Shown: positions 11,538 through 52,662 of the stretch, in pieces | Layout: every line of letters begins with the position of its first letter | Numbering within the stretch: the stretch's first letter is position 1 | Source: Spirosoma profusum | Lineage (GTDB): Bacteria; Bacteroidota; Bacteroidia; Cytophagales; Spirosomataceae | Direction of reading: 5' to 3' | Assembly: GCF_014699005.1 (NCBI RefSeq) | Contig: NZ_JACWZY010000005.1 | Location: forward strand, 186,001-250,000 | DNA: 64,000 bases | Position numbers and translations under genes: made by a program | The notes under the pieces: generated by a model | The model's input: the letters and a program-made list of their open reading frames with translations, nothing else | What the model was told of the DNA's origin: nothing | Database searches by the model: none

Positions 11538-12812
11538 ATGTCAGTTGAGCACGATAAAATATCCATAGGTGTAATAGGCCTTGGATACGTTGGCTTGCCG
11601 TTAGCGGTTGAATTTGGAAAAAAATACGTAGTGAAGGGATTCGATACGAATAAGAATCGTATAAAACAACTGACAGAAGGTTATGATTATACGCTAGAAA
11701 TTAGCGATACACAGATTGCCGAATCGCATTGTTTATCATTTACAAACGATATAGAACAGCTTAAAGCATGTAACGTATTCATTATTACGGTTCCTACACC
11801 AATTGATAATTTTAAAAAGCCAGATTTAAGTTTTCTAAATAAAGCTTCATTGTCGGTTGGAAAGCTTTTAAAAAAAGGAGATATTATCGTATATGAGTCT
11901 ACAGTTTACCCCGGTTGTACTGAAGAAGATTGTGTTCCTATACTAGAAAAAAGTAGCAAATTAATATATAATAAAGATTTCTTCTGTGGTTATTCGCCGG
12001 AACGTATCAATCCAGGTGATAAAGAAAGAACACTGACAAAAATTCTCAAAATAACGTCAGGATCTACGATCGAAGCGGCCAATTTTATTGATAAACTATA
12101 CGGCTCAATTATCGAAGCAGGAACGTACCGTGCCCCCTCGATTCGGGTAGCAGAAGCGGCTAAAGCCATAGAAAATGCGCAGCGGGATATTAATATTTCC
12201 TTTATCAACGAACTGGCGCTGATATTCGATCGCATGGGTATAGATACAAATGACGTACTCGAAGCCGCAAGCACCAAATGGAATTTCTTAAAATTTAAGC
12301 CGGGTCTGGTGGGTGGGCATTGTATTGGCGTCGACCCCTATTATCTAGTTCACAAAGCGCAAAGTCTTGGCTATCAGCCACAAGTAATTTCATCAGGGCG
12401 GCTCGTCAATGACCGAATGGGGATATTCGTTGCGAAAAAAATCTTAAAGCAACTCATTGCGAATGGAGTACAAATTCAGCAAAGTAATGTGCTCCTTTTG
12501 GGCTTTACCTTCAAAGAAAATTGTCCCGATACACGTAATACAAAGGTGATAGACATCTATCACGAACTGAAAGATTTTGGAATAACTGTTGATGTATATG
12601 ACCCTTGGGCTTCAGCCTGCGCAGTATACGAAGAATACGGAGTTGAGTTATTGAGTGAAATTGGCAAAAATCAATACGATGGTATAATTATAACTGTAGC
12701 GCATCAGCAATTTTTCGATTTACAGATAAGAAAATTAAAGAAGAATGGAAAATCTATTGTTTTTGATATAAAGGCAATTTTTGATAGAGATCTGGTGGAT
12801 ATAAGATTATAA
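11538..12812 (+). CDS. wbpA: UDP-N-acetylhexosamine 6-dehydrogenase (WbpA/TviB type)
   Basis: This 424-residue NAD-dependent enzyme oxidises C6 of UDP-GlcNAc or UDP-GalNAc to the uronic acid. The Rossmann start GVIGLGYVGLPLA (about 11-23), the SPERINPGD segment, EAAKAIENAQRDINI and the catalytic-cysteine motif GGHCIGVDPYY (Cys near 261) all fit the WbpA/WbpO/TviB family. Sequence alone does not settle GlcNAc against GalNAc. The nearby wbpE, wbpD and wbpB genes make the WbpA role (first step to UDP-2,3-diamino-uronic acids) the best reading. The ATG at 11538 follows a 55-base spacer. Confidence 0.9.
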   Translation: MSVEHDKISIGVIGLGYVGLPLAVEFGKKYVVKGFDTNKNRIKQLTEGYDYTLEISDTQIAESHCLSFTNDIEQLKACNVFIITVPTPIDNFKKPDLSFLNKASLSVGKLLKKGDIIVYESTVYPGCTEEDCVPILEKSSKLIYNKDFFCGYSPERINPGDKERTLTKILKITSGSTIEAANFIDKLYGSIIEAGTYRAPSIRVAEAAKAIENAQRDINISFINELALIFDRMGIDTNDVLEAASTKWNFLKFKPGLVGGHCIGVDPYYLVHKAQSLGYQPQVISSGRLVNDRMGIFVAKKILKQLIANGVQIQQSNVLLLGFTFKENCPDTRNTKVIDIYHELKDFGITVDVYDPWASACAVYEEYGVELLSEIGKNQYDGIIITVAHQQFFDLQIRKLKKNGKSIVFDIKAIFDRDLVDIRL

Positions 12813-12852
12813 ACACATTTCATTTGGCATATTTCTACTAACTCTTATACTA

Positions 12853-13959
12853 ATGTCTTATAATCAATACAGTTTATCCGACGAGGGCTCGTTAAGTCCA
12901 GCTTATCATGACGCTCAGTTAGATATAATCAACATTAATTCTAAAGTACCTGAAATATCATCAACTAAAATTCAGGAGTATCTAACAAAATTTAGTCCTC
13001 GAGATTCATGGAAATTTATTCAAGTAAATTCGATTAAAGAAGGCCGTACTAGTCATAATTCAAAAGACATTTTTATTGATGATATAGTAGTCAAAACTGA
13101 TGACCCTAATTTTATATTCAATTACATTCGAGAAACAATATCTACTGAGAATTACTTCGCCTTTAGAACAGCTACTGCAGAAAACCTAAAAACAAAACTT
13201 CAGGATACTTATTCTCCTTTTTTGTACTCTGTTTATTATCCGTTTTATTTTCTACTTAGAAGGCTGATTCCTAAACTAAAAGGGTTCAGGAAAATATGTA
13301 GGCTGCTCGAGTTTCCAGTCGATATGTCAAAGGCTGAAATAATAGGTAGACTTATTTATAAAGGTTTTAAAATTATTGACCTATTAGAAACTAATTACGA
13401 AACTATTCTGATTACACAGGTTAATCCAAGCGACAATCCGAGCGCATCAAAGCCCATAGCTTCTGAAGGATTCATTTTTACAATGAATCGGCTTGGGAAA
13501 AATGGGAAAAATATAGTCGTTTACAAATTACGGACGATGCACCCTTATGCCGAATACGTATTGGATTATCTGCATAAAGCACACGGACTCGATATTGGCG
13601 GGAAATTTAAAAACGATTTTAGAATCAGTACGACTGGCCGGACGCTACGTAAATATTGGATTGATGAAATCCCCATGTTGTATAATCTTCTAAAAGGAGA
13701 TATAAAACTGGTCGGTGTCAGGCCCATTAGCGCGTACTATTTTTGTCTATACCCAGCTGAGGCTCAGGCCATCAGACACAAGTTTAAGCCGGGTTTACTC
13801 CCACCCTTTTATGCAGACATGCCTGGTACGTTCGATGAGATTGTCCAGTCGGAGATGAATTACCTACATCAGTACGAAAAGGCGCCTTTTAAAACAGACG
13901 TCAAATACCTCCTAAAAATAGCGACCAATATTCTGTTCAAAAACGCACGTAGCAAATAG
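12853..13959 (+). CDS. Sugar transferase, WcaJ/PglC-like domain with unusual N-terminus
   Basis: This 368-residue protein probably starts glycan assembly by moving a sugar phosphate onto undecaprenyl phosphate. The C-terminal part (from about 205) has the polyprenyl sugar-phosphate transferase signatures YKLRTMHPYAE, GRTLRKYWIDEIPMLYNLLKGD and KLVGVRPIS. The N-terminal 200 residues are hydrophilic and of unknown type, and the usual KRxFDxxxS plus hydrophobic re-entrant helix just before the domain is not evident. Only YSVYYPFYFLLRRLIPKLKG near 130 could contact the membrane. It sits between wbpA and wbpE in one transcription unit. Confidence 0.85.
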   Translation: MSYNQYSLSDEGSLSPAYHDAQLDIININSKVPEISSTKIQEYLTKFSPRDSWKFIQVNSIKEGRTSHNSKDIFIDDIVVKTDDPNFIFNYIRETISTENYFAFRTATAENLKTKLQDTYSPFLYSVYYPFYFLLRRLIPKLKGFRKICRLLEFPVDMSKAEIIGRLIYKGFKIIDLLETNYETILITQVNPSDNPSASKPIASEGFIFTMNRLGKNGKNIVVYKLRTMHPYAEYVLDYLHKAHGLDIGGKFKNDFRISTTGRTLRKYWIDEIPMLYNLLKGDIKLVGVRPISAYYFCLYPAEAQAIRHKFKPGLLPPFYADMPGTFDEIVQSEMNYLHQYEKAPFKTDVKYLLKIATNILFKNARSK

Positions 13960-13971
13960 TTTATTCAGAAA

Positions 13972-15114
13972 ATGGTACAGAGTAACGTAGAGCAAATTCA
14001 GATGGTTGATTTAAAAAATCAATACCTAAAAATTAAACCATCTATCGATGCAGCAATCCAGGAATGCATCGATTCTACTACGTTTATTAAAGGTCCTCAG
14101 GTAGGTTATTTTGAAAAACAACTGAGCCAGTACCTGAATGTAAAGCACGTTATCAGCTGTGCCAATGGGACCGATGCCTTACAGCTTGCTATGATGGCAC
14201 TAGGCTTAGAACCAGGTGATGAAGTTATCGTCCCGGCGTTTACCTACGTTGCTACTGCTGAGGTTATTGCTCTGCTCGGACTGAAGCCCGTAATGATTGA
14301 CGTAGATGCCCAAACGTTTACTATTAGTCGTGAATTGGTTGAAGCAGCCATTACCAATAAAACGAAGCTGGTTGTTCCGGTTCATTTATTCGGCCAATGT
14401 GCTGATATGGAAGGGATTAAACAGCTCTGCAAGGCGCATAAAATTGCTATTGTCGAAGATACGGCTCAGGCTATTGGTGCTACGTATACGTTTAGCCAGG
14501 GTAGTATAATATCGGCTGGGACTATTGGTGATCTGGGTACTACGTCGTTTTTCCCTTCCAAAAATTTAGGTTGCTTTGGCGACGGTGGTGCTGTTTATAC
14601 TAATAGTGACGTATTGGCCCAAAAGGTCAATATGATAGGTAATCATGGCCAGATTCGAAAATATCAGCATGAGCTTATTGGCATAAATTCCAGATTAGAT
14701 ACAATTCAGGCAGCCATTTTGATTGAGAAGTTAAAACATCTGGATCACTACGTTCAGGCGCGTCGGCAAGTTGCCGATATGTATGACCAGGCTTTCTATC
14801 ATAATAGCGCTCTTGAAATACCTTTCCGGAATCCCCAATCAACGCATGTTTTTCATCAATATACCCTGAAAGTACCTGTTGCTGAACGTGATACGTTGAA
14901 AACGCATCTGGCTCTGAAAGGCATTCCCAGTATGGTTTATTACCCGATTCCGCTTCATCAGCAAAAGGCCTATCAAAACATTGGCAGGGTAGTCGGCGAT
15001 TTGAACGTAACACTGGATTTATGTAACCGCGTATTATCGCTGCCTATGCATACTGAGTTGTCGACCTCTCAGGTCGAATATATTGCAGACACCGTCAATG
15101 ACTATTTCTCCTAG
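13972..15114 (+). CDS. wbpE: UDP-3-keto-uronate 3-aminotransferase (DegT/DnrJ family, WbpE-like)
   Basis: This 380-residue PLP enzyme would aminate C3 of UDP-2-acetamido-3-keto-uronate using glutamate. It has SCANGTDALQLAMMALGL for PLP phosphate binding, GDEVIVPAFTYVATAE, VEDTAQAIGA with the PLP-stacking Asp, and FFPSKNLGCFGDGGA, whose lysine forms the internal aldimine. The close match of these motifs to P. aeruginosa WbpE, with wbpD and wbpB directly downstream, supports the assignment. The gene starts 12 bases after the sugar transferase stop and overlaps wbpD. Confidence 0.92.
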   Translation: MVQSNVEQIQMVDLKNQYLKIKPSIDAAIQECIDSTTFIKGPQVGYFEKQLSQYLNVKHVISCANGTDALQLAMMALGLEPGDEVIVPAFTYVATAEVIALLGLKPVMIDVDAQTFTISRELVEAAITNKTKLVVPVHLFGQCADMEGIKQLCKAHKIAIVEDTAQAIGATYTFSQGSIISAGTIGDLGTTSFFPSKNLGCFGDGGAVYTNSDVLAQKVNMIGNHGQIRKYQHELIGINSRLDTIQAAILIEKLKHLDHYVQARRQVADMYDQAFYHNSALEIPFRNPQSTHVFHQYTLKVPVAERDTLKTHLALKGIPSMVYYPIPLHQQKAYQNIGRVVGDLNVTLDLCNRVLSLPMHTELSTSQVEYIADTVNDYFS

Positions 15115-15694
15115 TTCCGAGGAATCCGTATTTATTCATCCAACCGCCGTTATCGACGAGGGATGCGTGATTGGAGAAGGCACCAAAATCTGGCATTTCT
15201 GCCACATCATGCCCGGCAGCACCATCGGAAAAGGCTGTAACATTGGTCAGAACGTAGTAATTTCTCCGCAAGTAGTATTGGGCAACAACGTAAAGGTCCA
15301 GAACAACGTATCGATTTACACAGGTGTTACGTGTGCAGACGATGTATTTCTGGGGCCCTCAATGGTGTTTACTAACGTATCGAATCCACGTAGCGCCGTA
15401 AATCGCCGGAGTCAGTACGAGCCTACCTACGTTGGCAAAGGAGCCAGTATCGGGGCAAATGCGACAATCGTCTGCGGAAATACCATTGGTGACTATGCGT
15501 TTATCGGTGCTGGTGCTGTAGTAACTAAAAATATACCGCCGTACGCCCTTTTTGTTGGCAATCCAGCCCGGCAAATAGGCTGGATCAGTGCGTATGGCCA
15601 TCGATTATCATTTGATGCGACCGGAAAAGCCACCTGTCCAGAGAGCGGGGGCATTTATGAACTGAAAAACGGTAGCGTTTCCGTCGTCGAGTAA
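15098..15694 (+). CDS. wbpD: UDP-3-amino-uronate N-acetyltransferase (WbpD-like, left-handed beta-helix)
   Basis: This roughly 198-residue protein acetylates the 3-amino group from acetyl-CoA. Hexapeptide repeats run through most of it (FIHPTAVIDEGCVIGEG, CNIGQNVVISPQVVLGNN, VGKGASIGANATIVCG), with FVGNPARQIGWI closing the helix and a short tail typical of WbpD/WlbB. The frame is open from a TTG at 15083, but the ATG at 15098 gives the natural start, overlapping the end of wbpE by 17 bases. Substrate is inferred from the neighbours. Confidence 0.9.
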   Translation: MTISPSSEESVFIHPTAVIDEGCVIGEGTKIWHFCHIMPGSTIGKGCNIGQNVVISPQVVLGNNVKVQNNVSIYTGVTCADDVFLGPSMVFTNVSNPRSAVNRRSQYEPTYVGKGASIGANATIVCGNTIGDYAFIGAGAVVTKNIPPYALFVGNPARQIGWISAYGHRLSFDATGKATCPESGGIYELKNGSVSVVE

Positions 15695-15714
15695 CTTCCA
15701 CTTCCTTCCTCTAT

Positions 15715-16674
15715 ATGAAAAAATTCGCTCTAATTGGTGCGGCTGGATTTATTGCTCCACGACATATGAAAGCCATCCGCGAAACGGGTAACGTACTGGT
15801 GACCGCTTTCGATAAATTCGATTCGGTTGGGGTCATGGACAGCTATTTTCCAGATGCTAATTTCTTTACGGAATTTGAGCGCTTCGACCGACATATCGAC
15901 AAGCTACGTCGCCAAGACAACCCTATCAACTACGTAACAATCTGTAGTCCAAACTACCTGCATGATGCGCATATCCGTTTCGGCTTACGTAGCGGAGCTG
16001 ATGTTATCTGCGAAAAGCCGCTGGTACTCAACCCCTGGAACATCGACGCACTCGCCGAGATGGAAAACGAAACGGGTCGACGTGTGTTTAATATCCTTCA
16101 GTTGCGGTTGCATCCAGCTATAGTTGCCTTAAAAAACCGGATTGATGAGGGACCAGCGGATAAAATTTATGATTTGGATCTAGCTTACATTACATCGAGA
16201 GGCAAATGGTACAATATCAGTTGGAAAGGCGACGTAGCAAAATCAGGGGGTATTGCGACGAATATTGGGGTTCATTTTTTTGATATGCTCTCCTGGATTT
16301 TCGGCGGTGTGAAAAAAAATCTTGTCCATATCCGCGAGAAGAATACAGCCTCGGGCTATCTTGAATTGGAAAAAGCACGTGTTCGCTGGTTTCTCAGTAC
16401 TGATTCTGAATCGTTGCCACAGGCGATTAAGATGAAGAACAAGCAGACGTATCGCTCCTTACAGATTGAAGGCGAAGAAATCGAATTTAGTGACGGCTTT
16501 ACGGATTTGCACACAAAAAGTTATGAACAAATTCTGGCGGGTAATGGATTCGGTCTACTCGAAGCCATCCCATCAATTGAAATTGTTCACGTTATCCGAA
16601 ATACCAGTCTGACGCAGCTTAACAGCGATTATCACCCGCTCGTTCAGCAGCTACGTTATCGCATTGCTGCCTGA
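15715..16674 (+). CDS. wbpB: UDP-N-acetyl-glucosaminuronate 3-dehydrogenase (WbpB-like)
   Basis: This 319-residue Gfo/Idh/MocA-family oxidoreductase would oxidise C3 of the UDP-sugar acid ahead of WbpE. It opens with FALIGAAGFIAPRHMKAI, then has TICSPNYLHDAHI, ICEKPLVLNPWN with the catalytic lysine of the EKP motif, YITSRGKWYN and GIATNIGVHFFDMLSW. These are nearly the same strings as in P. aeruginosa WbpB, a strong family-level match. In that system WbpB recycles its NADH by oxidising 2-oxoglutarate, coupling it to WbpE. It lies 20 bases after wbpD. Confidence 0.93.
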   Translation: MKKFALIGAAGFIAPRHMKAIRETGNVLVTAFDKFDSVGVMDSYFPDANFFTEFERFDRHIDKLRRQDNPINYVTICSPNYLHDAHIRFGLRSGADVICEKPLVLNPWNIDALAEMENETGRRVFNILQLRLHPAIVALKNRIDEGPADKIYDLDLAYITSRGKWYNISWKGDVAKSGGIATNIGVHFFDMLSWIFGGVKKNLVHIREKNTASGYLELEKARVRWFLSTDSESLPQAIKMKNKQTYRSLQIEGEEIEFSDGFTDLHTKSYEQILAGNGFGLLEAIPSIEIVHVIRNTSLTQLNSDYHPLVQQLRYRIAA

Positions 16675-16730
16675 TGCAACGTAACATCCAAACTAATTTG
16701 AACACTATCAGTTAATAACCCGGCCATTAC

Positions 16731-17582
16731 GTGACTTCTACTAACGATACGTATTCGCACTCAATAACGCCCCACAACAGCCTGTTCGATTTTCGGCTAG
16801 CCGAACTTTGGCAGTACCGCGATCTGGTTACATTATTTGTCAAGCGTGATTTTGTAGCAAAGTATAAACAGACCGTTTTGGGGCCAGTATGGTTTTTTAT
16901 TCAGCCTATTTTTCAATCACTTGTATTAACTGTTGCCTTTGGACGCATGGCCGGGCTACCTACCGATGGAATTCCTCCTATTCTCTTTTATTTAGCAGGA
17001 ATAACAGCCTGGAATTATTTTTCCAACTGCCTCCGCGCCACCTCGAATACTTTTGCGGCTAATGCCCATTTATTTGGTAAAGTCTATTTTCCGAGAGTAG
17101 TGACTCCTATCTCAGTTGTTCTCAGCAACCTGATTCAATTTGGAATTGGCCTACTATTATTCCTGATAATCTACCTCTATTACATGCTTACCGGAAGTCA
17201 CTTCCACCCGAATAACACTTTGTTTTTATTGCCAGTACTCATTTGTAGTATGGGAATTATGGGGCTCGGCTTAGGAATGCTTATTTCTTCGTTAACAACT
17301 CGTTATCGTGATTTACAATATTTGGTCGACTTTGGTATGCAACTACTTATGTATGCAACACCTGTAATAATTCCACTGTCGGCCATACCCGTAAAATATA
17401 CACCCATTATGTTGATCAATCCAATGACTGGCATTATCGAAACATTCAAATACAGTTTTTTTGGAGCGAGTATATTTTCATGGCAATTATTAAGTTATTC
17501 AATAGGGTTTTCTATTAGTATTTTTTTGATTGGATTTATCATATTTAATAATACAGAAAAGAATTTCATGGATACCGTATAA
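16731..17582 (+). CDS. wzm: ABC-2 type polysaccharide export permease (Wzm/TagG-like)
   Basis: This 283-residue inner-membrane protein has a short cytoplasmic N-terminus, then about six hydrophobic segments. Signature strings are LVTLFVKRDFVAKYKQTVLGPVWF at the N-terminal interface (from about residue 37), then GITAWNYFSNCLRATSNTFAANAHLFGKVYFPR and the C-terminal INPMTGIIETFKYSFFG. It would pair with the Wzt ATPase encoded at 19288 to move lipid-linked glycan across the inner membrane. The start is a GTG at 16731. Oddly, an unrelated membrane-protein gene separates it from its ATPase. Confidence 0.93.
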   Translation: MTSTNDTYSHSITPHNSLFDFRLAELWQYRDLVTLFVKRDFVAKYKQTVLGPVWFFIQPIFQSLVLTVAFGRMAGLPTDGIPPILFYLAGITAWNYFSNCLRATSNTFAANAHLFGKVYFPRVVTPISVVLSNLIQFGIGLLLFLIIYLYYMLTGSHFHPNNTLFLLPVLICSMGIMGLGLGMLISSLTTRYRDLQYLVDFGMQLLMYATPVIIPLSAIPVKYTPIMLINPMTGIIETFKYSFFGASIFSWQLLSYSIGFSISIFLIGFIIFNNTEKNFMDTV

Positions 17583-17630
17583 TTTATTAGTTAATCAAAT
17601 ATGTCAATAAAGAAAACTTACAAGCTTTAG

Positions 17631-19283: not shown

Positions 19284-19287
19284 ACTC

Positions 19288-20580
19288 ATGAAGCCAATAA
19301 TTAAAGTAGAGAATATCTCGAAACAGTACCGCCTGGGTAACATTGGGTTAAATACAATTCGAGATGATTTCCAACGCTGGTTATATCGAATCCAAGGTAA
19401 AGAAGACCCTCTTCTAAAAATAGGTGAAGTAAATAATCGAAAGCTAAAAGGCTCAAGTGAATATGTCTGGGCACTAAAAGACATTACTTTCGAAGTAATG
19501 CCAGGTGATATACTCGGAATTATCGGTGAAAATGGAGCTGGGAAATCAACCCTGCTAAAAATACTCTCTAAAGTAACCGGACCAACAACAGGACGCATCG
19601 ATTTTAATGGCCGGATAAGCAGTTTACTTGAAGTTGGCACTGGTTTCCATCCTGACCTGACGGGACGAGAAAACATCTTTTTGAACGGGGCAATTTTGGG
19701 GCTCAATAAACGAGAAATACGTAGTAGACTCGACGAGATTATTGATTTTTCTGGTTGTGAACGTTATATAGATACGCCCGTAAAGCGCTACTCAAGTGGT
19801 ATGATTGTTCGTCTTGGATTTGCGGTTGCCGCTCATCTGGAGCCTGAAATATTAATAGTTGATGAAGTTCTGGCAGTGGGGGATGCTGAATTCCAGAAAA
19901 AAGCTGTTGGAAAAATGCAGGACGTAAACGTAAAAGAAGGGAGAACAGTCCTAGTGGTAAGTCATAATATGACAATAATGAACGAACTATGTAATAGAGG
20001 TATACTATTAGAAAACGGAATAATCAAGTGCGATACAACAATCAATAATGCCATATTCAACCATATAACCAGCAACAATGCAGTAACAGAAAAAAAATGG
20101 TTAAATGGTAATGCACCTGGTAATGACAAAATAAAATTAAGAAAGGCATATATAATTAATAAAGAAAATAAGCCCATTAATCACGCTTATATTAACGAAG
20201 AAATAGGGTTCTGTGCTGAATATGAACTGTTAAGTGAATTAAGTTTTTTTACGCATGGAATAAATGTCTTCAATAGCATGGATATTCATTTATTTTCGTC
20301 GCATGATAATGTAGAGATTGAAAAAGATAAAAAATTTAAGCCAGGTTATTACAAAACTACTGTTTGGATTCCAGCAAATTTACTTCAGAGTGATTATATT
20401 AAGATTAGTTTTGCATGCATGAAATATAATCCATTTGAGCAATTATTTCATGAAATTAATGTACTTAGACTCAATGTACTCGAACCAGAAGTATCATTAA
20501 CAAGAAATGAAAGCTACAAAGGGAAATTACCTGGGCTAATCAGGCCCTGTCTAAAATGGGAAGAACGGCAATTAATTTAA
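19288..20580 (+). CDS. wzt: Polysaccharide ABC transporter ATPase with C-terminal extension (Wzt-like)
   Basis: This 430-residue protein has a full nucleotide-binding domain: Walker A GENGAGKST (about 79-87), the signature region YSSGMIVRLGFAVAAH (about 168-183), Walker B ILIVDEVLAVGD and the switch histidine in VVSHNM. The usual NBD ends near 240. The extra 190 residues resemble the beta-rich Wzt C-terminal domain that recognises the polymer's non-reducing end before export. This suggests chain-end recognition of the finished glycan, perhaps a terminal modification by the following methyltransferase. It has an ATG start and works with the permease encoded at 16731. Confidence 0.92.
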   Translation: MKPIIKVENISKQYRLGNIGLNTIRDDFQRWLYRIQGKEDPLLKIGEVNNRKLKGSSEYVWALKDITFEVMPGDILGIIGENGAGKSTLLKILSKVTGPTTGRIDFNGRISSLLEVGTGFHPDLTGRENIFLNGAILGLNKREIRSRLDEIIDFSGCERYIDTPVKRYSSGMIVRLGFAVAAHLEPEILIVDEVLAVGDAEFQKKAVGKMQDVNVKEGRTVLVVSHNMTIMNELCNRGILLENGIIKCDTTINNAIFNHITSNNAVTEKKWLNGNAPGNDKIKLRKAYIINKENKPINHAYINEEIGFCAEYELLSELSFFTHGINVFNSMDIHLFSSHDNVEIEKDKKFKPGYYKTTVWIPANLLQSDYIKISFACMKYNPFEQLFHEINVLRLNVLEPEVSLTRNESYKGKLPGLIRPCLKWEERQLI

Positions 20581-20605
20581 CAAATTAAAAAGTTAAACGA
20601 GTAAC

Positions 20606-21496: not shown

Positions 21497-21601
21497 GTTT
21501 AATATATAAGTAGGCAATTAGATTATTTTAAAAAATTGCAAATATGAATTGTAAGTTTAATTTAATTTAAATAGTCGATTCAATCATAGGCAAATTCATA
21601 T

Positions 21602-43068: not shown

Positions 43069-43074
43069 AAGACT

Positions 43075-44136: not shown

Positions 44137-44167
44137 GGGGTGATAAAACTAATTCAATCAACTCTGA

Positions 44168-44794: not shown

Positions 44795-44834
44795 ACTTCT
44801 ACTATCTGAATAAACTATTACGTATCAGTAGTGT

Positions 44835-45602
44835 ATGTTCCGTCCTCGCGTTATTCCGGTTCTTCTCCTAAAAAATAAAGGTCTGGTCAAGTCCGTAAAA
44901 TTCAACGACTATACCTATATCGGTGACCCAATCAACGCCGTCAAAATTTTTAACGATTTGAAGGCCGATGAGTTGATGTTGCTGGACATTCTGGCAACAA
45001 AGGAAAATCGCTGCATCGACCTGGAATTGATACGTGCCATCGGCGACGAAGCCAATATGCCTTTCGCGGTTGGGGGCGGCATTCGCTCACTTCAGCAGAT
45101 TAAGGAACGTATCAACGCCGGTGCCGAAAAGGTAGTCATCAACTCGTTTGCAGTAAAGGACCCCAGTTTTATTAAGGCTGCGTCCGACGAATTTGGTAGT
45201 TCCACCATCGTCGTTTCCATCGATGTCAAAAAGAAATTTTGGGGTAAACAACAAGTTTATACGCTGGGCGGGAGCCAATCAACCGGCCTCAATCCGATAC
45301 GTTGGGCCCAGCAAATGGAAGCCTACGGAGCCGGTGAGTTGATAATCACCTCTATTGAGCACGACGGCATGATGCAGGGATACGATTTAGCCCTTATTCG
45401 AGCCATATCAGCCGCTGTCGATATTCCGGTAGTAGCCGCTGGCGGGGCCGGAAGTTTACCTGATTTAAAAGCAGCTATCCACACAGCCCATGCCTCTGCC
45501 GTAGCCGCCGGTTCTATGTTTGTGTACCACGGCCCTCGAAAAGCGGTTTTGGTCAATTATCCCCAACGTAATGAATTACTAACCTTATTCAGTCAGCCAT
45601 GA
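44835..45602 (+). CDS. hisF: HisF-like subunit for acetamidino-sugar synthesis, catalytic Asp11 replaced
   Basis: This 255-residue TIM-barrel protein aligns with HisF: RVIPVLLLKNKGLVKSVKF, GDPINAVKIFND, PFAVGGGIRS, INSFAVKDPSF, VVSIDVKKK, ELIITSIEHDG and VVAAGGAGSLPD, which binds phosphate in true HisF. The position of catalytic Asp11 of HisF (in ACLDVKDG) is occupied by Leu (PVLLLKNKG), while the second catalytic Asp (VVSID) is kept. This is what one expects of the O-antigen HisF2 group, which need not perform the cyclase reaction but passes ammonia on. It overlaps wbpG by 4 bases (ATGA). Confidence 0.93.
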   Translation: MFRPRVIPVLLLKNKGLVKSVKFNDYTYIGDPINAVKIFNDLKADELMLLDILATKENRCIDLELIRAIGDEANMPFAVGGGIRSLQQIKERINAGAEKVVINSFAVKDPSFIKAASDEFGSSTIVVSIDVKKKFWGKQQVYTLGGSQSTGLNPIRWAQQMEAYGAGELIITSIEHDGMMQGYDLALIRAISAAVDIPVVAAGGAGSLPDLKAAIHTAHASAVAAGSMFVYHGPRKAVLVNYPQRNELLTLFSQP

Positions 45603-46756
45603 AAATATGCGCAAAAGGCGTGTGGGATGAGAGTATTCCAGGCATTACGTTCGACGAGCATGGCGTTTCAAATTTCTGCAAGCTTCAGGAAACGATGATG
45701 GCCAACTACCCCAGGGGCGAAAAGGGATTGGCCGATTGGCAGAAACTTGTTGCGGCCATCAAGAAGATTGGTCAGCATAAGCCTTACGATTGCCTGATTG
45801 GCGTGAGTGGGGGTGTCGATAGCTCCTATTTGCTACATCTGGCGGTTCAGCATGGTTTGCGCCCACTGGCCGTTAACCTCGACAATGGCTTCAACAGTGA
45901 CATTGCCGTACAGAATATCTACAAGGTAACCTCAAAACTCAACATTGATCTGGAAACCTACGTAATCAATTACGAAGAGATTCAGGATCTGCTACGTGCC
46001 TACATGAAAGCCGGAATGCCCTGGATTGATACGCCTACTGATCTGGCCATCAAGGCAACGATGTATCACGTAGCACAGGCCGAAGGCATTTCCTTTATGC
46101 TACGTGGTAATGACTTTCGATCGGAGGGTAAGCAACCCAAAGAGTGGACGTATGCCGATGACCGTCAGTTGTTACATATCCACCAGACATTCGGTTCAGA
46201 TATTCCGCTGACAACGTACCCGTTGCTGACTCTGCCTAAAATGATTTTTTCGGGGTTGCTGAGAGGCATTAAAGATATCCGCCCCTACTACTATCTGGAT
46301 TATAATAAACAGGAAGCCAAACAGTTGATGACCGAGTTATATGGCTGGAAAGATTACGGCGGCCACCATCACGAAAACCTGTTCACTAAATTTTCAATGG
46401 CTTACTGGCTACCTAAAAAGTTTGGCATCGATAAACGAAAAATCAATCTATCGGCGCAGGTTCTGAGCAATGCAATCACCCGCGATGAAGCCCTGGAACA
46501 ATTAAGCCAGCCGTTTGCCCCCGAGAGCGAGCTGGAGTTGATGCGGGCTTATATTCAGAAAAAACTGGCTCTAACTGACGAGGAGTTTGGAAGAATCTGG
46601 GCAGCGCCTGCCAAAAATACCTTCGATTATCCATCTAACTATGAACTGACGCTCAAATTATCAAGCCGTTTCAAGCCTCTCTTAAAGCGGCTTTATGGAT
46701 TTACGCCCATGACAATCACGGCGAATCAGGTACTGGATACAAAAATCAAAAAATGA
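45599..46756 (+). CDS. wbpG: N-acetyl sugar amidotransferase (WbpG/PseA-like)
   Basis: This 385-residue PP-loop ATP pyrophosphatase enzyme would convert an N-acetyl group of a UDP-sugar to N-acetimidoyl (acetamidino) using ATP and ammonia from HisH/HisF. Its motifs are YDCLIGVSGGVDSSYLLHLA (PP-loop SGGVDSS, about residues 62-81), LAVNLDNGFNSDIAVQNI, and MLRGNDFRSEGKQPKEWTY (about 167-185). The N-terminal zinc-type cysteine pairs of the family appear reduced: C4-A-K-G7 and S24-N-F-C27 keep one Cys each. It starts at ATG 45599 overlapping hisF and ends overlapping the DUF354 gene by 4 bases. Confidence 0.94.
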   Translation: MKICAKGVWDESIPGITFDEHGVSNFCKLQETMMANYPRGEKGLADWQKLVAAIKKIGQHKPYDCLIGVSGGVDSSYLLHLAVQHGLRPLAVNLDNGFNSDIAVQNIYKVTSKLNIDLETYVINYEEIQDLLRAYMKAGMPWIDTPTDLAIKATMYHVAQAEGISFMLRGNDFRSEGKQPKEWTYADDRQLLHIHQTFGSDIPLTTYPLLTLPKMIFSGLLRGIKDIRPYYYLDYNKQEAKQLMTELYGWKDYGGHHHENLFTKFSMAYWLPKKFGIDKRKINLSAQVLSNAITRDEALEQLSQPFAPESELELMRAYIQKKLALTDEEFGRIWAAPAKNTFDYPSNYELTLKLSSRFKPLLKRLYGFTPMTITANQVLDTKIKK

Positions 46757-47826
46757 AATTTCTGTTTTATTTCGGTCATCCAGCCCAGTACCTGGCCCTG
46801 CGTGAAACAATGCTACGTCTTTCGGAGAAGCATGGAATAACCATACTGATCAAAACCAAAGACGTACTCGAGGATTTGCTGAAGAATGACGGCCTGCCCT
46901 ACACGAACGTATTGCCCAAAGAACGAGGAGCTTCCCGATTGGCGATACTGCTGAGTTTACTGAAGCGGATGGTCATTATTTTTCCCATCATCCTGAAAAA
47001 GAAACCAGATGTTCTGATTGGCACGGATGCTGCTTTAGCCCAATTGGGTAAATTAATGAACATTCACCGGATTACAATTCTGGAAGACGACTACGACGTT
47101 ATTAAAAACCTGGCAGATTTAACATTCCCGTTTACACAAACGATACTATGCCCGGATGTCTGTAACGTAGGAAGCTGGCAATCCAAGAAAGTTGGCTACA
47201 GAGGCTACATGAAACTCGGCTATCTGCATCCTACTATTTTTACACCCGATAAAACGGTTTTAGCTAAATACCGCATTCCTAAAGATTACCTACTAATCCG
47301 ACTGTCGCGGTTAGCGGCTCATCATGATATTGGTGTACGAGGTTTGGATGAAAACCTGCTCGATACGATTATTCAATCTGCCCAAAAAAGGGATTATGAC
47401 GTATTGATTACCGCCGAAGGCATCATTGCTGACAAATACAAATCGTATCAACTCCAAATCGCCCCAGCCGATATACACCATGTTTTAGCCAATGCCAAAC
47501 TGCTTATTTCAGATAGCCAGAGTATGAGTGTTGAAGCCTCTATGTTAGGTATTCCGTCTATCCGGTATAGCAGTTTAGTCAATAAAATATCTGTACTCAG
47601 CGAACTTGAAATAAAATACAGCCTGACGTTTGGCATACAAATTGGAGAAACAGAGCGACTGCTGTCAACAATTGATGAATTACTGTCAACTCCAGATTTA
47701 TATGATCGCTTTCAACGAAAACGACAGAAGATGCTAGACGACAAAATAGATGTCACTAGTTTCTGGGTCGATTTTTTTGAAAATTACCCTGTCAGTAGAC
47801 ATAATCGGGTTAACACAGCTGTATAG
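46753..47826 (+). CDS. DUF354 family protein, copy 1 (GT-B-like)
   Basis: This 357-residue protein has the DUF354 pattern: MKFLFYFGHPAQYLALRET, PDVLIGTDAALAQLGKL, ITILEDDYDVIKNLADL (about residues 113-129), GYLHPTIFTPDK, LLIRLSRLAAHHDIGVRG (about 180-197) and LLISDSQSMSVEASMLGIPSIR (about 251-272). The last string resembles the donor region of UDP-GlcNAc 2-epimerases and GT-B transferases. It may be the transferase for the acetamidino uronic acid, because it is translationally coupled to wbpG. That function is inference. Confidence 0.83.
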   Translation: MKFLFYFGHPAQYLALRETMLRLSEKHGITILIKTKDVLEDLLKNDGLPYTNVLPKERGASRLAILLSLLKRMVIIFPIILKKKPDVLIGTDAALAQLGKLMNIHRITILEDDYDVIKNLADLTFPFTQTILCPDVCNVGSWQSKKVGYRGYMKLGYLHPTIFTPDKTVLAKYRIPKDYLLIRLSRLAAHHDIGVRGLDENLLDTIIQSAQKRDYDVLITAEGIIADKYKSYQLQIAPADIHHVLANAKLLISDSQSMSVEASMLGIPSIRYSSLVNKISVLSELEIKYSLTFGIQIGETERLLSTIDELLSTPDLYDRFQRKRQKMLDDKIDVTSFWVDFFENYPVSRHNRVNTAV

Positions 47827-47847
47827 TACAATTAACGTAGTAATAAG

Positions 47848-48882
47848 ATGTACGACTATCAGGTATTAAGCCAACTAACTGATAAAGAAGAAAGAAAGAT
47901 TAATGAATTTTTAGAGTCATACGCTGAGTTTGCTTATTTTCAATCGCCTGCTTTTTTACACGTATGTCAAGCAACTAAAAATGTATTACCATTTTATATA
48001 ATCGCTATATGTCATGGAGATATTGTCGGGGTTTTATTATTCTATAGACAGATAATTATGAACGTAGCAGTTTTAAACGTAGTAACAAGTAGAGGTGTAA
48101 TTGCTGGGGGACCTGTCGCAAAAGATAATAACAAAGAGATTATTAATGGTTTATTGGCAAAGCATAAAGAAGTAAATGTAAAAACACTATACTCGCAGGT
48201 GCGAAATTTACATGATACGTTAGCGTACAAAGAAGCGTTTCAACGTAACAATTTTACGTATGAAGAGCATTTGAATTTTATTATCGATTTACGCAAAACT
48301 GAGGACGTATTGTGGAAGAAAATATATTCAAAACGACGTAACGAAATTCGGCGCGCCTTAAACGAAGGTTGTACCATCCATCTCGAAACGTCACTCGATT
48401 CACTAAAATCGGCTTATGCCATTTTAAAAGAAGTTTATCAGCGAGCTCGATTACCACTTCCCGGCTTCGAACATTTCAGCGCCCTGCATGAACAAACAAG
48501 CGAAACGGCTGGCCTTCGGCTGTTCACCGCAAAATGGGAGGGTAAAATAATCGGCTGCATGCTGTGCCTGGCTCATAACGGTACGTTATATGATTATTAT
48601 GCAGGCGCTTACAGTAAGTTTTACAACAAATATCCGAATGATTTACTGCCCTGGGAGATAATGAAATGGGCAAAAAATAATGGGTTTACTCAATTTGATT
48701 TCGGTGGTGCGGGCAAACCCGATGTTCACTATGGGGTGAGAGAGTATAAGAAAAAATTCGGGGGCCAGCTAGTGAATTATGGCCGATACGAACGTATTGA
48801 ACTCCCGGTTCTATACACGGTTGCGAGTGTTGGATTCAGGTTGATACGTGCCTTGGGGAACGTATCATTTACGGTTAACTGA
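47848..48882 (+). CDS. FemAB-like / GNAT-fold acyltransferase
   Basis: This 344-residue protein has a double GNAT-like fold as in FemAB/FemX: FLESYAEFAYFQSPAFLHV, then NFIIDLRKTEDVLWKKIYSKRRNEIRRALNEG (key KxRxxIRxAxxxG, about residues 147-171) and FTAKWEGKIIGCMLCLAHNGTLYDYYAGAY, ending FDFGGAGKPDVHYGVREYKKKFGG (about 278-301). Such proteins add amino acids from tRNA or acyl groups to a sugar amine. In this sugar-amine-rich pathway it could aminoacylate or acylate a diamino sugar. No direct evidence fixes the donor. Confidence 0.82.
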   Translation: MYDYQVLSQLTDKEERKINEFLESYAEFAYFQSPAFLHVCQATKNVLPFYIIAICHGDIVGVLLFYRQIIMNVAVLNVVTSRGVIAGGPVAKDNNKEIINGLLAKHKEVNVKTLYSQVRNLHDTLAYKEAFQRNNFTYEEHLNFIIDLRKTEDVLWKKIYSKRRNEIRRALNEGCTIHLETSLDSLKSAYAILKEVYQRARLPLPGFEHFSALHEQTSETAGLRLFTAKWEGKIIGCMLCLAHNGTLYDYYAGAYSKFYNKYPNDLLPWEIMKWAKNNGFTQFDFGGAGKPDVHYGVREYKKKFGGQLVNYGRYERIELPVLYTVASVGFRLIRALGNVSFTVN

Positions 48883-48888
48883 AAAATT

Positions 48889-49611
48889 ATGCAGGCTATT
48901 ACTATTGGGAACCAGTCGGATACGAGCTACAATTGGGATTATATATTCTCTAACGCTTATAATAACCGGACTGGACGCTATAAATCGAAAACACAATTAA
49001 ATTTCATCATAAAAAATCTAAATCGGAACGCACTACGTATTCTTGATGTAGCAGGTGGTTCAGGGCGTTTTGCTATTCCACTACTAGAGTATTCTAATGA
49101 TATTACAGTTATTGATATTAATCAGAGTGCAATCGATATTTTAAAATACAGAAATCAAAAAATATCAGCAATTTGTGGTGATTTCCTGGCGACCGAATTA
49201 AATAAAACGTATTCGACTATTGTTTGTATTGAAGCCTTATGCTATTTCTCCAATATTCAGGATGTTATTTCAAAGATGAACAAACTTCTTGATGATAGGG
49301 GAAATATCATTTTCACGTACACAAATACTGATAGCTGGCGTTACTGGCTTCGAAAATTAAAAGCGCTGGCCGGTGGTGAAAGTTCTTATTACGATGTAAA
49401 TCTGTCAGCATTAAAAAAAATACTCAACGACTGTCAATTTGAAATTGAAGCAGTGGAGGGTATGAACTGGATTCCTTTGCCGCTTACATCTAATACTATT
49501 CTGGTCGATTTTTTTGTCTTTCTTGAACAGAAACTTAATCTCAAAAACTGGCAGTCTCAAAGCCCCTGGTTATTAATTTCTGCCAGAAAAACGGGCGATA
49601 TACGGCGCTAA
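48889..49611 (+). CDS. SAM-dependent methyltransferase (class I)
   Basis: This 240-residue protein has LRILDVAGGSGRFAIPLLEY (about residues 52-71), VIDINQSAIDIL, ISAICGDFLA, TIVCIEALCYFSNIQDVI and GNIIFTYTNTDSW, a plain Methyltransf_11-like fold. It lies inside the acetamidino-sugar cassette and may methylate the amidine or a hydroxyl of the same sugar. It starts 6 bases after the FemAB-like gene. Confidence 0.85.
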   Translation: MQAITIGNQSDTSYNWDYIFSNAYNNRTGRYKSKTQLNFIIKNLNRNALRILDVAGGSGRFAIPLLEYSNDITVIDINQSAIDILKYRNQKISAICGDFLATELNKTYSTIVCIEALCYFSNIQDVISKMNKLLDDRGNIIFTYTNTDSWRYWLRKLKALAGGESSYYDVNLSALKKILNDCQFEIEAVEGMNWIPLPLTSNTILVDFFVFLEQKLNLKNWQSQSPWLLISARKTGDIRR

Positions 49612-49641
49612 ATAAACCCGCATTTCTTTCACACTTCACCT

Positions 49642-50733
49642 ATGAAAAGAATACTAGTCGATATTAACCATCCGGCGCATGTCCATCTCTTTAAATACTT
49701 CATTCAGGACGCACAAAGTGCTGGACATGAGGTCGTTGTGACTGCCAAAAATATCGACTCAGTTACGGATCTGCTACGTCTTTATCAGATAAAATTCATA
49801 AACATTGGTAACCGCAAAGACCATATTCTACTTAAATATATTTATGAGTTCGTTCATTTTATAAAGGTTCTTCTGCTGGTACGTAGCCGAAAAATAAACT
49901 ACGGTATTGGTGTTTCGCTGGTGTTACCGCTTGTCTCCAAATTAACACCAATGAAGTCGTTCGTACTCGATGATGATGATTTAACAGCTGCACCTATTTC
50001 GGGCAAATTCATTTCGTGGGCAGATGTTATCCTCAATCCTGACGCGTTGGCACATGAGAAACGAGGGCATCAGCAAGTATGCTATCCGAGCTACCATGAA
50101 CTGGCTTATTTACATCCAAACCGATTCGTACCTGACCCAACCGTGTTAAATGAGGCAGGAATTCAGGAAGGCGAGACTTTTTTTGTGTTACGTTTCAATG
50201 CGTTTAAGGCGCACCATGATGCAGGAATACGTGGTTTTTCACTCGCTCAAAAGCTTGAACTGGTGAAACTGCTCAGTGCCTTTGGACAAGTTTTCATTAC
50301 GTCTGAACGTAGCATCGAGTCGGAACTGGAACCGTACCAATTGCCCGTTTCTGCCGACAAAATACATTCGCTTTTGCATTTCGCTACGTTGTTTATTGGT
50401 GATAGTCAGACCATGACAACCGAAGCCGCTATACTGGGAACGCCCGCTCTAAAAATGAATTCGTTTGCTGGCAGGCTCTCTATTCCGAATGAGCTGGAAC
50501 ATCAATACCGGCTATGCTATTCGTTTTCTCCGGACGAATTCGATGGGATGATCGCAAAAATTAAAGAATTGCTGATAGGAAGTGACGTAAAGGAAAGATG
50601 GGCTCATCGTAAAGCAGTCATGTTAAACGAAAAAATTGATCTAACCTCTTTTTTGATCCAGTTGATTCTCCATTATCCGAAAAGTATAGCGAATCAGAAG
50701 CCTATTTTTTCGGCCAATGAATCATCGCTGTAG
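49642..50733 (+). CDS. DUF354 family protein, copy 2 (GT-B-like)
   Basis: This 363-residue paralogue of the 46753 product is closer to the classical DUF354 consensus: ILVDINHPAHVHLFKYFI, SAGHEVVVTAKN, SFVLDDDDLTAAPIS, YHELAYLHPNRFVPDP, VLRFNAFKAHHDAGIRG (about residues 183-199) and FIGDSQTMTTEAAILGTPALK (D-S-Q-T-M-x-x-E-A, about 250-270). Two DUF354 proteins in one cassette suggest two related transfer steps. Function remains unproven. Confidence 0.85.
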   Translation: MKRILVDINHPAHVHLFKYFIQDAQSAGHEVVVTAKNIDSVTDLLRLYQIKFINIGNRKDHILLKYIYEFVHFIKVLLLVRSRKINYGIGVSLVLPLVSKLTPMKSFVLDDDDLTAAPISGKFISWADVILNPDALAHEKRGHQQVCYPSYHELAYLHPNRFVPDPTVLNEAGIQEGETFFVLRFNAFKAHHDAGIRGFSLAQKLELVKLLSAFGQVFITSERSIESELEPYQLPVSADKIHSLLHFATLFIGDSQTMTTEAAILGTPALKMNSFAGRLSIPNELEHQYRLCYSFSPDEFDGMIAKIKELLIGSDVKERWAHRKAVMLNEKIDLTSFLIQLILHYPKSIANQKPIFSANESSL

Positions 50734-50744
50734 TAACAGCCGAT

Positions 50745-51503
50745 ATGAAAACGGATTTTACTATATCGATGTATATCAACCTGTTAAACAAGCTTGAAGA
50801 ATCAGGCTACAGTTTTTTTACGTTCGAAAAGTTCCTTTTTACCAATCCGCCCAGAAGTGTTATTCTGCGTCATGATGTTGACTCAAAACCTGAACATTCG
50901 CTGGAATTTGCCAGGATTCAGCATGAGCGTGGCATAGCAGGCGTATATTATTTCAGAGCTAATCAGTCAGGTTGGAGTGAGCGGGTAATTCGGGAAATTG
51001 CCGATATGGGTCACGAGATTGGCTATCATTATGAATGCCTGACGACCTGCAAAGGAGATCTTTCGCTGGCCATCAAAGACTTTAATCAAAACCTAACCGC
51101 ACTACGTCGGCTTGCGCCCGTCTCAACGATTTGTATGCATGGGAGTCCATTGTCGAAATATGACTCCAGAGACCTATGGCGCGTCTATTCGTATCGGGAA
51201 TTTGGGATTATTGGCGAGCCTTATTTTGATCTCGACTTCAGCAAAGTAGCTTACCTCACCGACACCGGTCGCCGTTGGAATGGCAGCAAAGTTAGCGTTA
51301 GGGATAAAGTGGAAACATCATTGCCCTACTCGTTCAAAAGCACCTGCAACATCATTGCTACGTTGGCTGAAAACGAACTTCCCGAGCAGATTATGTTCAC
51401 GTTCCATCCGCAGCGATGGCACTCTAATCCATTTTTCTGGGCAAGTGAATTCGCCCTGCAAAGTGTGAAGAACGTAGTAAAGCGGTACTTCTATGTTGAA
51501 TAA
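50745..51503 (+). CDS. Polysaccharide deacetylase-like (NodB-fold) protein
   Basis: This 252-residue protein has SVILRHDVDSKPEHSLEFA (RHDVD with metal-binding Asp, about residues 38-56), AGVYYFRANQSG, MGHEIGYHYECLTT (H-E-I-G-Y-H, about 95-108) and IMFTFHPQRWHS near the end. This is the NodB-like pattern found in O-antigen and capsule loci. It probably hydrolyses an N-acyl group of a precursor. No signal peptide is present, so a cytoplasmic nucleotide- or lipid-linked sugar is the likely substrate. Confidence 0.83.
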   Translation: MKTDFTISMYINLLNKLEESGYSFFTFEKFLFTNPPRSVILRHDVDSKPEHSLEFARIQHERGIAGVYYFRANQSGWSERVIREIADMGHEIGYHYECLTTCKGDLSLAIKDFNQNLTALRRLAPVSTICMHGSPLSKYDSRDLWRVYSYREFGIIGEPYFDLDFSKVAYLTDTGRRWNGSKVSVRDKVETSLPYSFKSTCNIIATLAENELPEQIMFTFHPQRWHSNPFFWASEFALQSVKNVVKRYFYVE

Positions 51504-51519
51504 TTTTTGAATCTGAATA

Positions 51520-52662
51520 ATGTTAAAACTTCTTACGTTGATTGGCGCCCGACCACAAATTATCAAGGCATCAGCACTAAGCAGAGCGATACGTTTGAAT
51601 TTTTCGGGGCAAATCTCGGAAGTCATTGTGCATACAGGCCAACATTACGATGAAAATATGTCGGCCGTATTTTTTGATGAGTTAGCTATTCCGGCTCCTG
51701 CCTATAATCTTAGGGTAGGCTCTGGAAAACATGGCGAGCAAACCGCCAAAATGATAGTCGAAGTAGAGTCGATTCTTGAATTGGAACAGCCAGATTATCT
51801 CATTCTATATGGCGACACCAACTCTACGCTGGCGGGTGCCATTGCGGCCTCTAAACAGCACGTACCCATTGTTCATATCGAGGCTGGTCTGCGCTCTTAC
51901 AACAAGAAAATGCCCGAAGAGGTCAATCGAATCTTAACGGATCACGTATCGACTTACTTGTTCCCACCTACGCAAACGGGCGTCGAAAACCTGCAAAAAG
52001 AAGGTTTTACGCTGAACAACCAGCCGCCTTACACAATGGATAATCCAGGCATATTTAATGTTGGCGACATTACGTATGATAACAGCCTGTATTTCTGCGA
52101 CGTAGCAGCTTCGAGAACGGATATTACAGAACGGCTCCAGCTTCAAGAGTCACCCTATGCGTTGGTTACCATTCACCGAAATGCAAATACTGACGATGCT
52201 ATGCGACTCAACGCCATCTTCGATACATTGCTAACCATCGCAACAACGTATTCGACTAAATTAATTATACCGCTGCATCCACGTACTGCTAAACAAATGA
52301 TTGCCTTGCTAAAGGAAAATTTGTATAAAGCTCTGTTTTCCAGTTCAAAAATCAGCTTCTTACCTCCGGTATCATTTTTGGAAATGATAACCCTCGAACA
52401 ACAGGCCAGTCTGATTATAACGGATTCAGGTGGCGTACAGAAGGAAGCTTATTACTATCAAAAACCTTGTATTGTACTACGTTCGGAAACAGAGTGGGTA
52501 GAAATCGTTGAGAACGGAGCAGCTTTTTTATGCGATGCAAATCCTGGCTTAATTCTTGACGCTTATAATTCGATTACAAAATCGAATGCTATTCAATTTA
52601 GAAAAATATACGGCGACGGAAAAACCGCCGAAAGTATTCTGAATATTTTATCAGGAAAGTAA
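51520..52662 (+). CDS. wbpI: UDP-2,3-diacetamido-2,3-dideoxyuronate 2-epimerase (WbpI-like)
   Basis: This 380-residue GT-B-fold epimerase has LTLIGARPQIIKASALSRAI, VIVHTGQHYDENMSAVFFDEL, LILYGDTNSTLAGAIAASK, HIEAGLRSYNKKMPEEVNR and IITDSGGVQKEAYYYQKPCIVLR. The GARPQ(F/I)IKA start and HYDxNMS string separate WbpI from WecB (FGTRPEGIK at 39726). It would turn UDP-GlcNAc(3NAc)A into UDP-ManNAc(3NAc)A, the last step of the pathway begun by wbpA, B, E and D about 35 kb upstream. Confidence 0.93.
   Translation: MLKLLTLIGARPQIIKASALSRAIRLNFSGQISEVIVHTGQHYDENMSAVFFDELAIPAPAYNLRVGSGKHGEQTAKMIVEVESILELEQPDYLILYGDTNSTLAGAIAASKQHVPIVHIEAGLRSYNKKMPEEVNRILTDHVSTYLFPPTQTGVENLQKEGFTLNNQPPYTMDNPGIFNVGDITYDNSLYFCDVAASRTDITERLQLQESPYALVTIHRNANTDDAMRLNAIFDTLLTIATTYSTKLIIPLHPRTAKQMIALLKENLYKALFSSSKISFLPPVSFLEMITLEQQASLIITDSGGVQKEAYYYQKPCIVLRSETEWVEIVENGAAFLCDANPGLILDAYNSITKSNAIQFRKIYGDGKTAESILNILSGK

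Follow-up and report, generated by a model that had tools for sequence, protein, structure and literature searches.

In the wbp locus of Pseudomonas aeruginosa O5, the genes for the route to UDP-2,3-diacetamido-glucuronic acid, or UDP-GlcNAc(3NAc)A (here called block 1), come first and are followed by HisH-HisF-WbpG and then by WbpI, and the acetamidino group of the resulting mannuronic acid is located at position 3. In Bacteroidota, linking sugars for the cargo of the type IX secretion system (T9SS) have been reported from three oral species, and all three are different: a seryl-glucuronamide, a glycyl-mannuronic acid and an alanyl-deoxyhexose. According to one report, the linking sugar of Tannerella forsythia is 2-N-glycyl-3-N-acetylmannuronic acid, the epimerase being predicted only; the same report proposes that the 2-N-acetyl group of the Wbp product is swapped for serine or glycine, VimA being a match to TIGR03019 and VimE a CE4 protein (PMC7468200). 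Wbp genes are required for A-LPS of Porphyromonas gingivalis, as stated in another study (PMC4031482). Prevotella intermedia uses a different linking sugar and is without WbpB, WbpD, VimA and VimE. Here, we describe a stretch of 64,000 nucleotides from Spirosoma profusum (GTDB family Spirosomataceae; contig NZ_JACWZY010000005.1, positions 186,001 to 250,000), referred to below as the window, in which one polysaccharide locus holds gene families of both the O5 and the Wbp/Vim systems. They are divided between block 1 and a second block that runs from HisH2 to WbpI (Table 1).

The locus shares with P. aeruginosa O5 the WbpB, WbpE, WbpD, WbpI, HisH2, HisF2 and WbpG families and also their order, with block 1 first, then HisH-HisF-WbpG and then WbpI. 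It differs from O5 in its TviB-type dehydrogenase and its ABC-type export (Wzm/Wzt), with no Wzx match seen in a Pfam scan that covered 58 of the 68 listed open reading frames (ORFs; at least 120 amino acids, the remaining 10 overlapping other genes). Moreover, WbpG and WbpI are separated by DUF354, FemAB and CE4-like genes, and the two blocks by roughly 28 kb of other sequence with further genes. With the Wbp/Vim systems of P. gingivalis and T. forsythia it shares the Wbp enzymes, a WbpI-type epimerase (in T. forsythia predicted only), a TIGR03019/FemAB protein, a CE4-fold protein and, in the genome, PorU and T9SS tails. The window has a candidate for each Wbp/Vim step except WbpS and adds amidination, through HisH2/HisF2/WbpG, and the DUF354 proteins; its asparagine-synthase Pfam match is only WbpG's own weak one. 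The O-glycan of T. forsythia is likewise a Bacteroidota surface glycan with an acetamidino sugar, as is predicted here from genes, but there the group is on pseudaminic acid, and the candidate enzyme is an AnsB-domain protein in place of a HisH/HisF/WbpG set.

Our preferred reading, held tentatively and at somewhat less than even confidence, is that this is a surface-polysaccharide locus of the Spirosoma-Runella-Larkinella-Dyadobacter group which makes an amidinated, amino-acylated mannuronic acid that may anchor T9SS cargo. In the scheme that we infer, UDP-GlcNAc would be converted into UDP-GlcNAc(3NAc)A by block 1 (TviB-type dehydrogenase, WbpB, WbpE and WbpD), and WbpI would invert C-2 to the manno form. 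Ammonia from HisH2 and HisF2 would be delivered to WbpG, and one N-acetyl group would become an acetamidino group, presumably that at position 3 by analogy with O5. The product is most likely an acetamidino ManNAc(3NAc)A. The other (2-N) acetyl group would be removed by the CE4-like deacetylase, and an amino acid would be added there by the FemAB protein, as proposed for VimE and VimA in Porphyromonas and Tannerella. The finished sugar would be transferred by the DUF354 proteins, and the glycan would be exported by Wzm/Wzt, the Wza- and Wzc-like proteins and Wzi. Its sugar may be the one to which PorU joins T9SS cargo in this organism. What the sequences show directly is the set of genes, their families and a layout kept among relatives; the enzyme activities, the sequence of steps, the positions of amidine and amino acid and the anchoring role belong to the scheme.

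First, the eight genes that a preliminary description had assigned to this pathway are all present where it placed them: WbpE, WbpB and WbpD have their namesakes or close counterparts as top matches in PDB, HisF2 and WbpG score above their family cut-offs, and the epimerase falls in the clade of a characterized structure. The predicted Wbp-type route to UDP-ManNAc(3NAc)A, together with the acetamidino amidotransferase set, is therefore complete within one locus. Block 1 extends from 11538 to 16674. The PDB matches of its WbpB are WbpB itself (3oa2 and 3o9z), the next being at 1.6e-9, and the top match of WbpD (3mqg) is a structure that we take to be the Bordetella WbpD homologue; the likelier start of WbpD is an in-frame ATG at 15098. 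For the dehydrogenase, the best NCBIfam model is TviB (UDP-GlcNAc C-6 dehydrogenase), although the score stays under the cut-off of this model. Since the protein is of the TviB type, its earlier designation as WbpA is wrong for the subfamily but probably right for the role, and a function as UDP-GlcNAc 6-dehydrogenase is plausible. Related dehydrogenases of 50% identity or more are encoded within 10 kb of WbpB or a WbpB-like gene in six other loci (L093, L097, L098, L099, L102 and L153). In L090 and L091, the only type present is 26% identical, and no such dehydrogenase was seen in the other WbpB stretches (L035, L037, L092, L094-L096, L100, L101 and L103-L105).

The epimerase encoded at 51520 is 46% identical to 8sxv, a Thermus UDP-2,3-diacetamido-glucuronic acid 2-epimerase, against 30% to Escherichia coli WecB. 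In a tree of 40 rows (omitting three duplicate loci, rows of 300 amino acids or fewer or below 70% coverage, and one long-branch row of L096), it lies with 8sxv in a clade of 22 rows with support of 100/99; an earlier tree of 24 rows had placed it with weak support (81/66). The same clade holds six epimerases of WbpB loci (L091, L092, L096, L103, L104 and L139). Outside it are one WbpB-locus epimerase (L101) and the WecB group, to which a second L092 epimerase and the protein at 39726 of the window also belong. If the 51520 protein were instead a UDP-GlcNAc 2-epimerase, the product would be an amidino ManNAcA with no 2,3-diamino sugar. Its score above the TIGR00236 wecB cut-off (287 bits against 210) and its next PDB match after the 8sx/8sy set, the UDP-GlcNAc 2-epimerase 4neq (295 bits), point that way, but the locus already contains a true WecB at 39726, and with the identities and clade given above, this explanation is highly improbable.

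In the window, 27.5 kb separate the end of WbpB from the start of HisH2, as had been described (about 28 kb). In eight Spirosoma, Runella, Larkinella and Dyadobacter records, a single contig carries both WbpE and WbpG, with 11-31 kb between them. In Runella aurantiaca, of the same family as the host, both blocks are present in the same order with about 29 kb between WbpE and WbpG, and in Spirosoma oryzicola a collinear locus with a spacing of about 23 kb is carried by plasmid unnamed2 (NZ_CP089540.1; 240 kb, typed non-mobilizable). Where only the distance was compared, the spacing is about 31 kb in S. fluviale, 24 kb in S. validum, 22 kb in Larkinella punicea, 27.5 kb in Runella sp. CRIBMP, 20 kb in Dyadobacter alkalitolerans, 11 kb in Larkinella soli (in which the module differs) and 23 kb in Roseivirga; it is 30.5 kb in the window. 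Seven Spirosoma, Larkinella, Runella and Dyadobacter genomes have one WbpE of at least 57% identity each, with no other above 40% among the matches listed. In Polaribacter aquimarinus, WbpE and WbpG are on separate contigs, yet WbpG has WbpB and WbpD nearby. The split arrangement is old. Assembly from cassettes, which the preliminary description had suggested, is rejected for this group as a recent event, since the split is kept in R. aurantiaca, on the S. oryzicola plasmid and in seven further genomes at 11-31 kb. Because NCBI taxonomy places Runella in Spirosomataceae and Spirosoma in Cytophagaceae, the name Spirosoma-Runella group is used here.

Second, motifs of the amidotransferase set were compared. 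By eye, HisH2 keeps the Cys (GICLGMQ) and the His-Glu pair (QFHPEKS), and the first catalytic Asp of HisF (PCLDIKD in the host's own HisF) is replaced by Leu in HisF2 (PVLLLKN). A role of HisH2/HisF2 in histidine biosynthesis was considered and discarded, since a separate ordinary HisF, 40% identical to HisF2, is encoded elsewhere in the genome and HisF2 is above the NF038364 cut-off. The closest relatives of WbpG are found in Rudanella, Spirosoma, Larkinella and Runella. Close WbpG modules also occur in metagenome-assembled genomes (MAGs) assigned outside Bacteroidota, one titled Lokiarchaeota (L139), one titled Methanosarcina (L133) and four more (L116, L119, L120 and L148); L139 alone of these has WbpB and WbpD. 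We read these modules as transfers or binning errors. Eleven loci (L122, L129, L130, L134, L136, L141, L143, L144, L146, L194 and L195) have two different WbpG genes near each other, one close to that of the window and one about 38-43% identical.

An amidine-bearing sugar had been thought unusual for Bacteroidota. This does not hold, given the sugar of T. forsythia and the 53 Bacteroidia genomes, out of 247, in which HisF2 scores above its cut-off. The T. forsythia O-glycan bears Pse5Am7Gra (PMC6120980), and a review lists acetamidino among the rare groups of Bacteroidota O-glycans (PMC12871550). WbpG was found at E <= 1e-40 in 76 of the 247 genomes, and at 50% identity or more in 7, including that of the window; predicted amidination is thus common in the class, and this clade of WbpG is less so. 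Across the class, HisF2 and WbpB show no association: both are present in 4 genomes, with 53 and 20 carriers, where about 4.3 would be expected. With no excess over expectation, the pairing belongs to the locus of this lineage and is not a general rule. Presence of WbpE is no proof of co-occurrence with WbpG, as WbpE (E <= 1e-100) is already found in 216 of the 247 genomes.

These counts bear on the explanation that WbpG/HisH2/HisF2 amidinate some other sugar, such as L-FucNAc or a nonulosonic acid, and that the ManNAc(3NAc)A or GlcNAc(3NAc)A made by the Wbp set stays unmodified. Besides the missing association, WbpB lies within the fetched flank of a close WbpG in only 3 of 45 loci, many of them short (L134, L139 and a 30% match in L151). 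Despite the conserved split within the group, block 2 is mostly alone, with no WbpB nearby, in genomes outside it. However, no Fnl- or NeuB-type gene was seen in the window, nor did any of the 58 scanned ORFs match Polysacc_synt_2, Epimerase or a NeuB-type family, and related loci have WbpI in WbpG's own block. In the Lokiarchaeota MAG and Polaribacter loci, WbpB and WbpD are within 10 kb of a close WbpG. G082 and G097, taken at one point for block 2 without a Wbp route, do not have this type of WbpB, but contain WbpE (59%), WbpD (71-75%) and a 28-31% identical Gfo/Idh oxidoreductase, presumably WlbA-like. We consider amidination of another sugar quite unlikely.

Third, five genes stand between WbpG and WbpI: two for DUF354 proteins, one for a methyltransferase and two that the preliminary description had overlooked, for a FemAB protein and a CE4-like protein of 252 amino acids. 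The model of the first DUF354 protein has a predicted local distance difference test score (pLDDT) of 91, and its top Foldseek matches are 2-epimerases (E 1.5e-14), with glycosyltransferases further down. Since WbpI already performs the epimerization, DUF354 is favored as the transferase for the amidino sugar, and the modeled protein is a probable glycosyltransferase. In the CE4-like protein, RHD, GHE and GYHY are unchanged in an alignment of 19 relatives. Its profile matches the peptidoglycan deacetylase 2c1g (E 5.6e-5) over profile positions 25-95 only; the model has a pLDDT of 90.5, and all eight Foldseek matches at E <= 0.001 are CE4 family members, three of the entries being a CE4 pseudoenzyme. 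The interval from WbpG to WbpI contains both the FemAB and the CE4-like gene not only in the window but also in S. fluviale, S. validum, R. aurantiaca, two more Runella (L112 and L114) and S. oryzicola. In Runella and S. oryzicola, a DegT aminotransferase (L033 11143-12327; L197 23294-24475) stands between FemAB and the second DUF354 gene, in the place of the window's methyltransferase.

Associations among these genes were counted in 139 DNA pieces after removal of three duplicates. Of the 36 pieces with the CE4-like gene, 21 also contain FemAB and 32 contain DUF354; among the 103 pieces that lack it, the numbers are 2 and 24. DUF354 is within 3 kb of 40 of the 45 WbpG genes that are at least 50% identical, and of none of the 37 below 47% in loci without a close WbpG, a comparison that sets aside WbpG genes of 47-50% identity and 11 more distant ones that accompany a close one in their locus. 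All pieces were chosen for HisF2, WbpG, WbpB, WbpE or the CE4-like gene, several come from one genome and they are not independent; the contrasts are also inflated because loci of this kind were the source of the FemAB, CE4 and DUF354 profiles.

The host genome encodes PorU and T9SS cargo. Its PorU scores 1238 bits with NF033707 (cut-off 420), and at least 22 T9SS tails (TIGR04183) are present among the best 22 of 107 candidates. In the whole genome, only the FemAB gene matches TIGR03019 at E <= 0.001, and the window WbpE is the sole one over E 1e-100 among the best 7 of 21 candidates. Thus, if the organism uses an anchor of the Wbp/Vim type, this locus is the candidate, and a Vim-like gene pair in a predicted amidino-sugar locus suggests an unusual protein anchor. 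T9SS tails are found in 243 of the 247 Bacteroidia genomes, and WbpE in 209 of 224 T9SS-rich genomes (at least 20 tails; table read by hand) against 7 of 23 poor ones, a link that is weakened by confounding with ancestry and by tail counts that reach 22 candidates at most.

Several observations weigh against amino-acylation and anchoring by this locus. The score of the FemAB protein is far under the TIGR03019 cut-off. The CE4-like protein itself has no Pfam match, 3 of its 19 relatives match Polysacc_deac_1 (best E 0.0073), and the Foldseek superpositions are loose (template modelling score 0.38-0.58, root-mean-square deviation 8-12). The apparent likeness of the two proteins to VimA and VimE is at the level of family and fold, short of demonstrated orthology. 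The CE4-like gene is present and FemAB was not found in the L. punicea stretch, and neither was found in those of D. alkalitolerans and L. soli, so the pair is frequent in the group but not fixed. FemAB is near (within 8 kb of) 14 of the 45 close WbpG genes and CE4 near 22, and of 17 Bacteroidia genomes with a CE4-like gene, 9 are without a WbpG match at E <= 1e-40; these counts indicate that amidation and amino-acylation can occur one without the other and may concern different sugars. The plasmid location in S. oryzicola agrees more readily with an accessory capsule than with a core anchor, unless the chromosome has another set.

Such findings would be accommodated by a plain O5-type locus, in which UDP-ManNAc(3NAm)A serves as a repeat sugar of capsule or lipopolysaccharide and the FemAB and CE4-like proteins decorate another residue, unrelated to cargo anchoring. 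The eight families are the same as in O5, the locus is large and capsule-type with about 20 glycosyltransferase and methyltransferase genes, the CE4-like gene is also found away from WbpG, the D. alkalitolerans stretch has WbpG and WbpI without the pair, and one copy is plasmid-borne. On the other side stand the position of the pair between WbpG and WbpI in the seven stretches named above, and the presence here of the genome's sole TIGR03019 match and of the sole WbpE over E 1e-100 among the candidates scored. We regard the O5-type explanation as possible, though doubtful. The amidinated, amino-acylated sugar remains our preferred reading. Its most specific form would be that PorU of the Spirosoma-Runella group uses a 2-N-aminoacyl, 3-acetamidino mannuronic acid as a new kind of linking sugar for T9SS cargo, and that the locus merges the Wbp/Vim route with the acetamidino amidotransferase, plasmid-borne in one species; this we rate as rather unlikely.

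The polysaccharide locus as a whole spans about 8 to 63.5 kb of the window on the + strand of a host genome of 8.73 Mb. It begins with genes for a Wza-like protein and a Wzc-like kinase, followed by block 1, Wzm, a LIC_10190-family membrane protein, Wzt, the glycosyltransferase/methyltransferase array (both kinds counted from the Pfam scan) and block 2. On the 3' side are four Acyl_transf_3 proteins (52719-53855 and 55999-59605), UpxY, Wzi and CpsB; a 333-amino-acid protein at 53961 has no Pfam match. WecE (TIGR02379 515 bits, cut-off 435) lies beside a WecD-like GNAT protein (33226-35111), and with WecB they form a predicted enterobacterial-common-antigen-like sugar set inside the same locus. 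Neither Wzx nor Wzy was matched among the scanned ORFs, some membrane proteins being without a Pfam match and Wzy being easily missed. Rfam at gathering scores gave no match in the window. A literature search on amidino sugars and T9SS, Spirosoma polysaccharide and Flavobacterium acetamidino, with subscription journals mostly outside its range, returned nothing on this locus.

Table 1. Predicted features of the S. profusum polysaccharide locus, in positions of the window.
Feature	Position	Strand	Match or motif
UDP-GlcNAc 6-dehydrogenase, TviB type (WbpA role)	11538..12812	+	NF011729 TviB 555 bits (cut-off 592); TIGR03026 368 bits
Phosphoglycosyl transferase (initiating sugar transferase), inside block 1	12853..13959	+	PF02397 E 4.5e-23
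WbpE, 3-aminotransferase	13972..15114	+	top PDB match "Aminotransferase WbpE" 3nyu E 4.5e-98
WbpD, N-acetyltransferase	15083..15694	+	top PDB match "lipopolysaccharides biosynthesis acetyltransferase" 3mqg E 1e-68
WbpB, 3-dehydrogenase, Gfo/Idh/MocA family	15715..16674	+	top PDB match WbpB 3oa2 E 4.8e-114
Wzm, polysaccharide ABC transporter permease	16731..17582	+	PF01061 E 1.4e-18
LIC_10190-family membrane protein	17631-19283	+	232 bits (cut-off 100)
Wzt, ABC transporter ATPase	19288..20580	+	PF00005 74.7 bits; weak Wzt C-terminal domain match PF14524 28.9 bits (cut-off 30.4)
WecB, true	39726-40904	+	464.7 bits to E. coli WecB
HisH2, glutaminase	44168..44794	+	TIGR01855 238 bits
HisF2, ammonia-channel subunit	44835..45602	+	NF038364 349 bits (cut-off 310)
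WbpG, N-acetyl sugar amidotransferase	45599..46756	+	TIGR03573 220 bits (cut-off 203); PP-loop SGGVDSS
DUF354 protein a, GT-B / 2-epimerase-like fold	46753..47826	+	PF04007 21.4 bits (cut-off 22)
FemAB-family aminoacyl/acyl transferase, VimA-like	47848..48882	+	TIGR03019 74.7 bits, E 6.8e-21 (cut-off 260)
Methyltransferase	48889..49611	+	PF13489
DUF354 protein b	49642..50733	+	PF04007 E 8.2e-12
Divergent CE4-like deacetylase, VimE-like	50745..51503	+	motifs RHDVD, GHEIGYH, HPQRW
WbpI, UDP-GlcNAc(3NAc)A 2-epimerase	51520..52662	+	PDB 8sxv E 6.8e-101
UpxY-family transcription antiterminator of the locus	59925..60488	+	NF033644 131 bits (cut-off 100)

If the anchor reading is true, a fourth chemistry of T9SS linking sugars, with a positively charged amidine beside the attached amino acid, would exist in another branch of Bacteroidota. 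Should the anchor idea fail, the locus would still imply that a conserved glycan of Bacteroidota contains an amidino 2,3-diamino-mannuronic acid, and it would single out DUF354 as the usual companion of one clade of WbpG.

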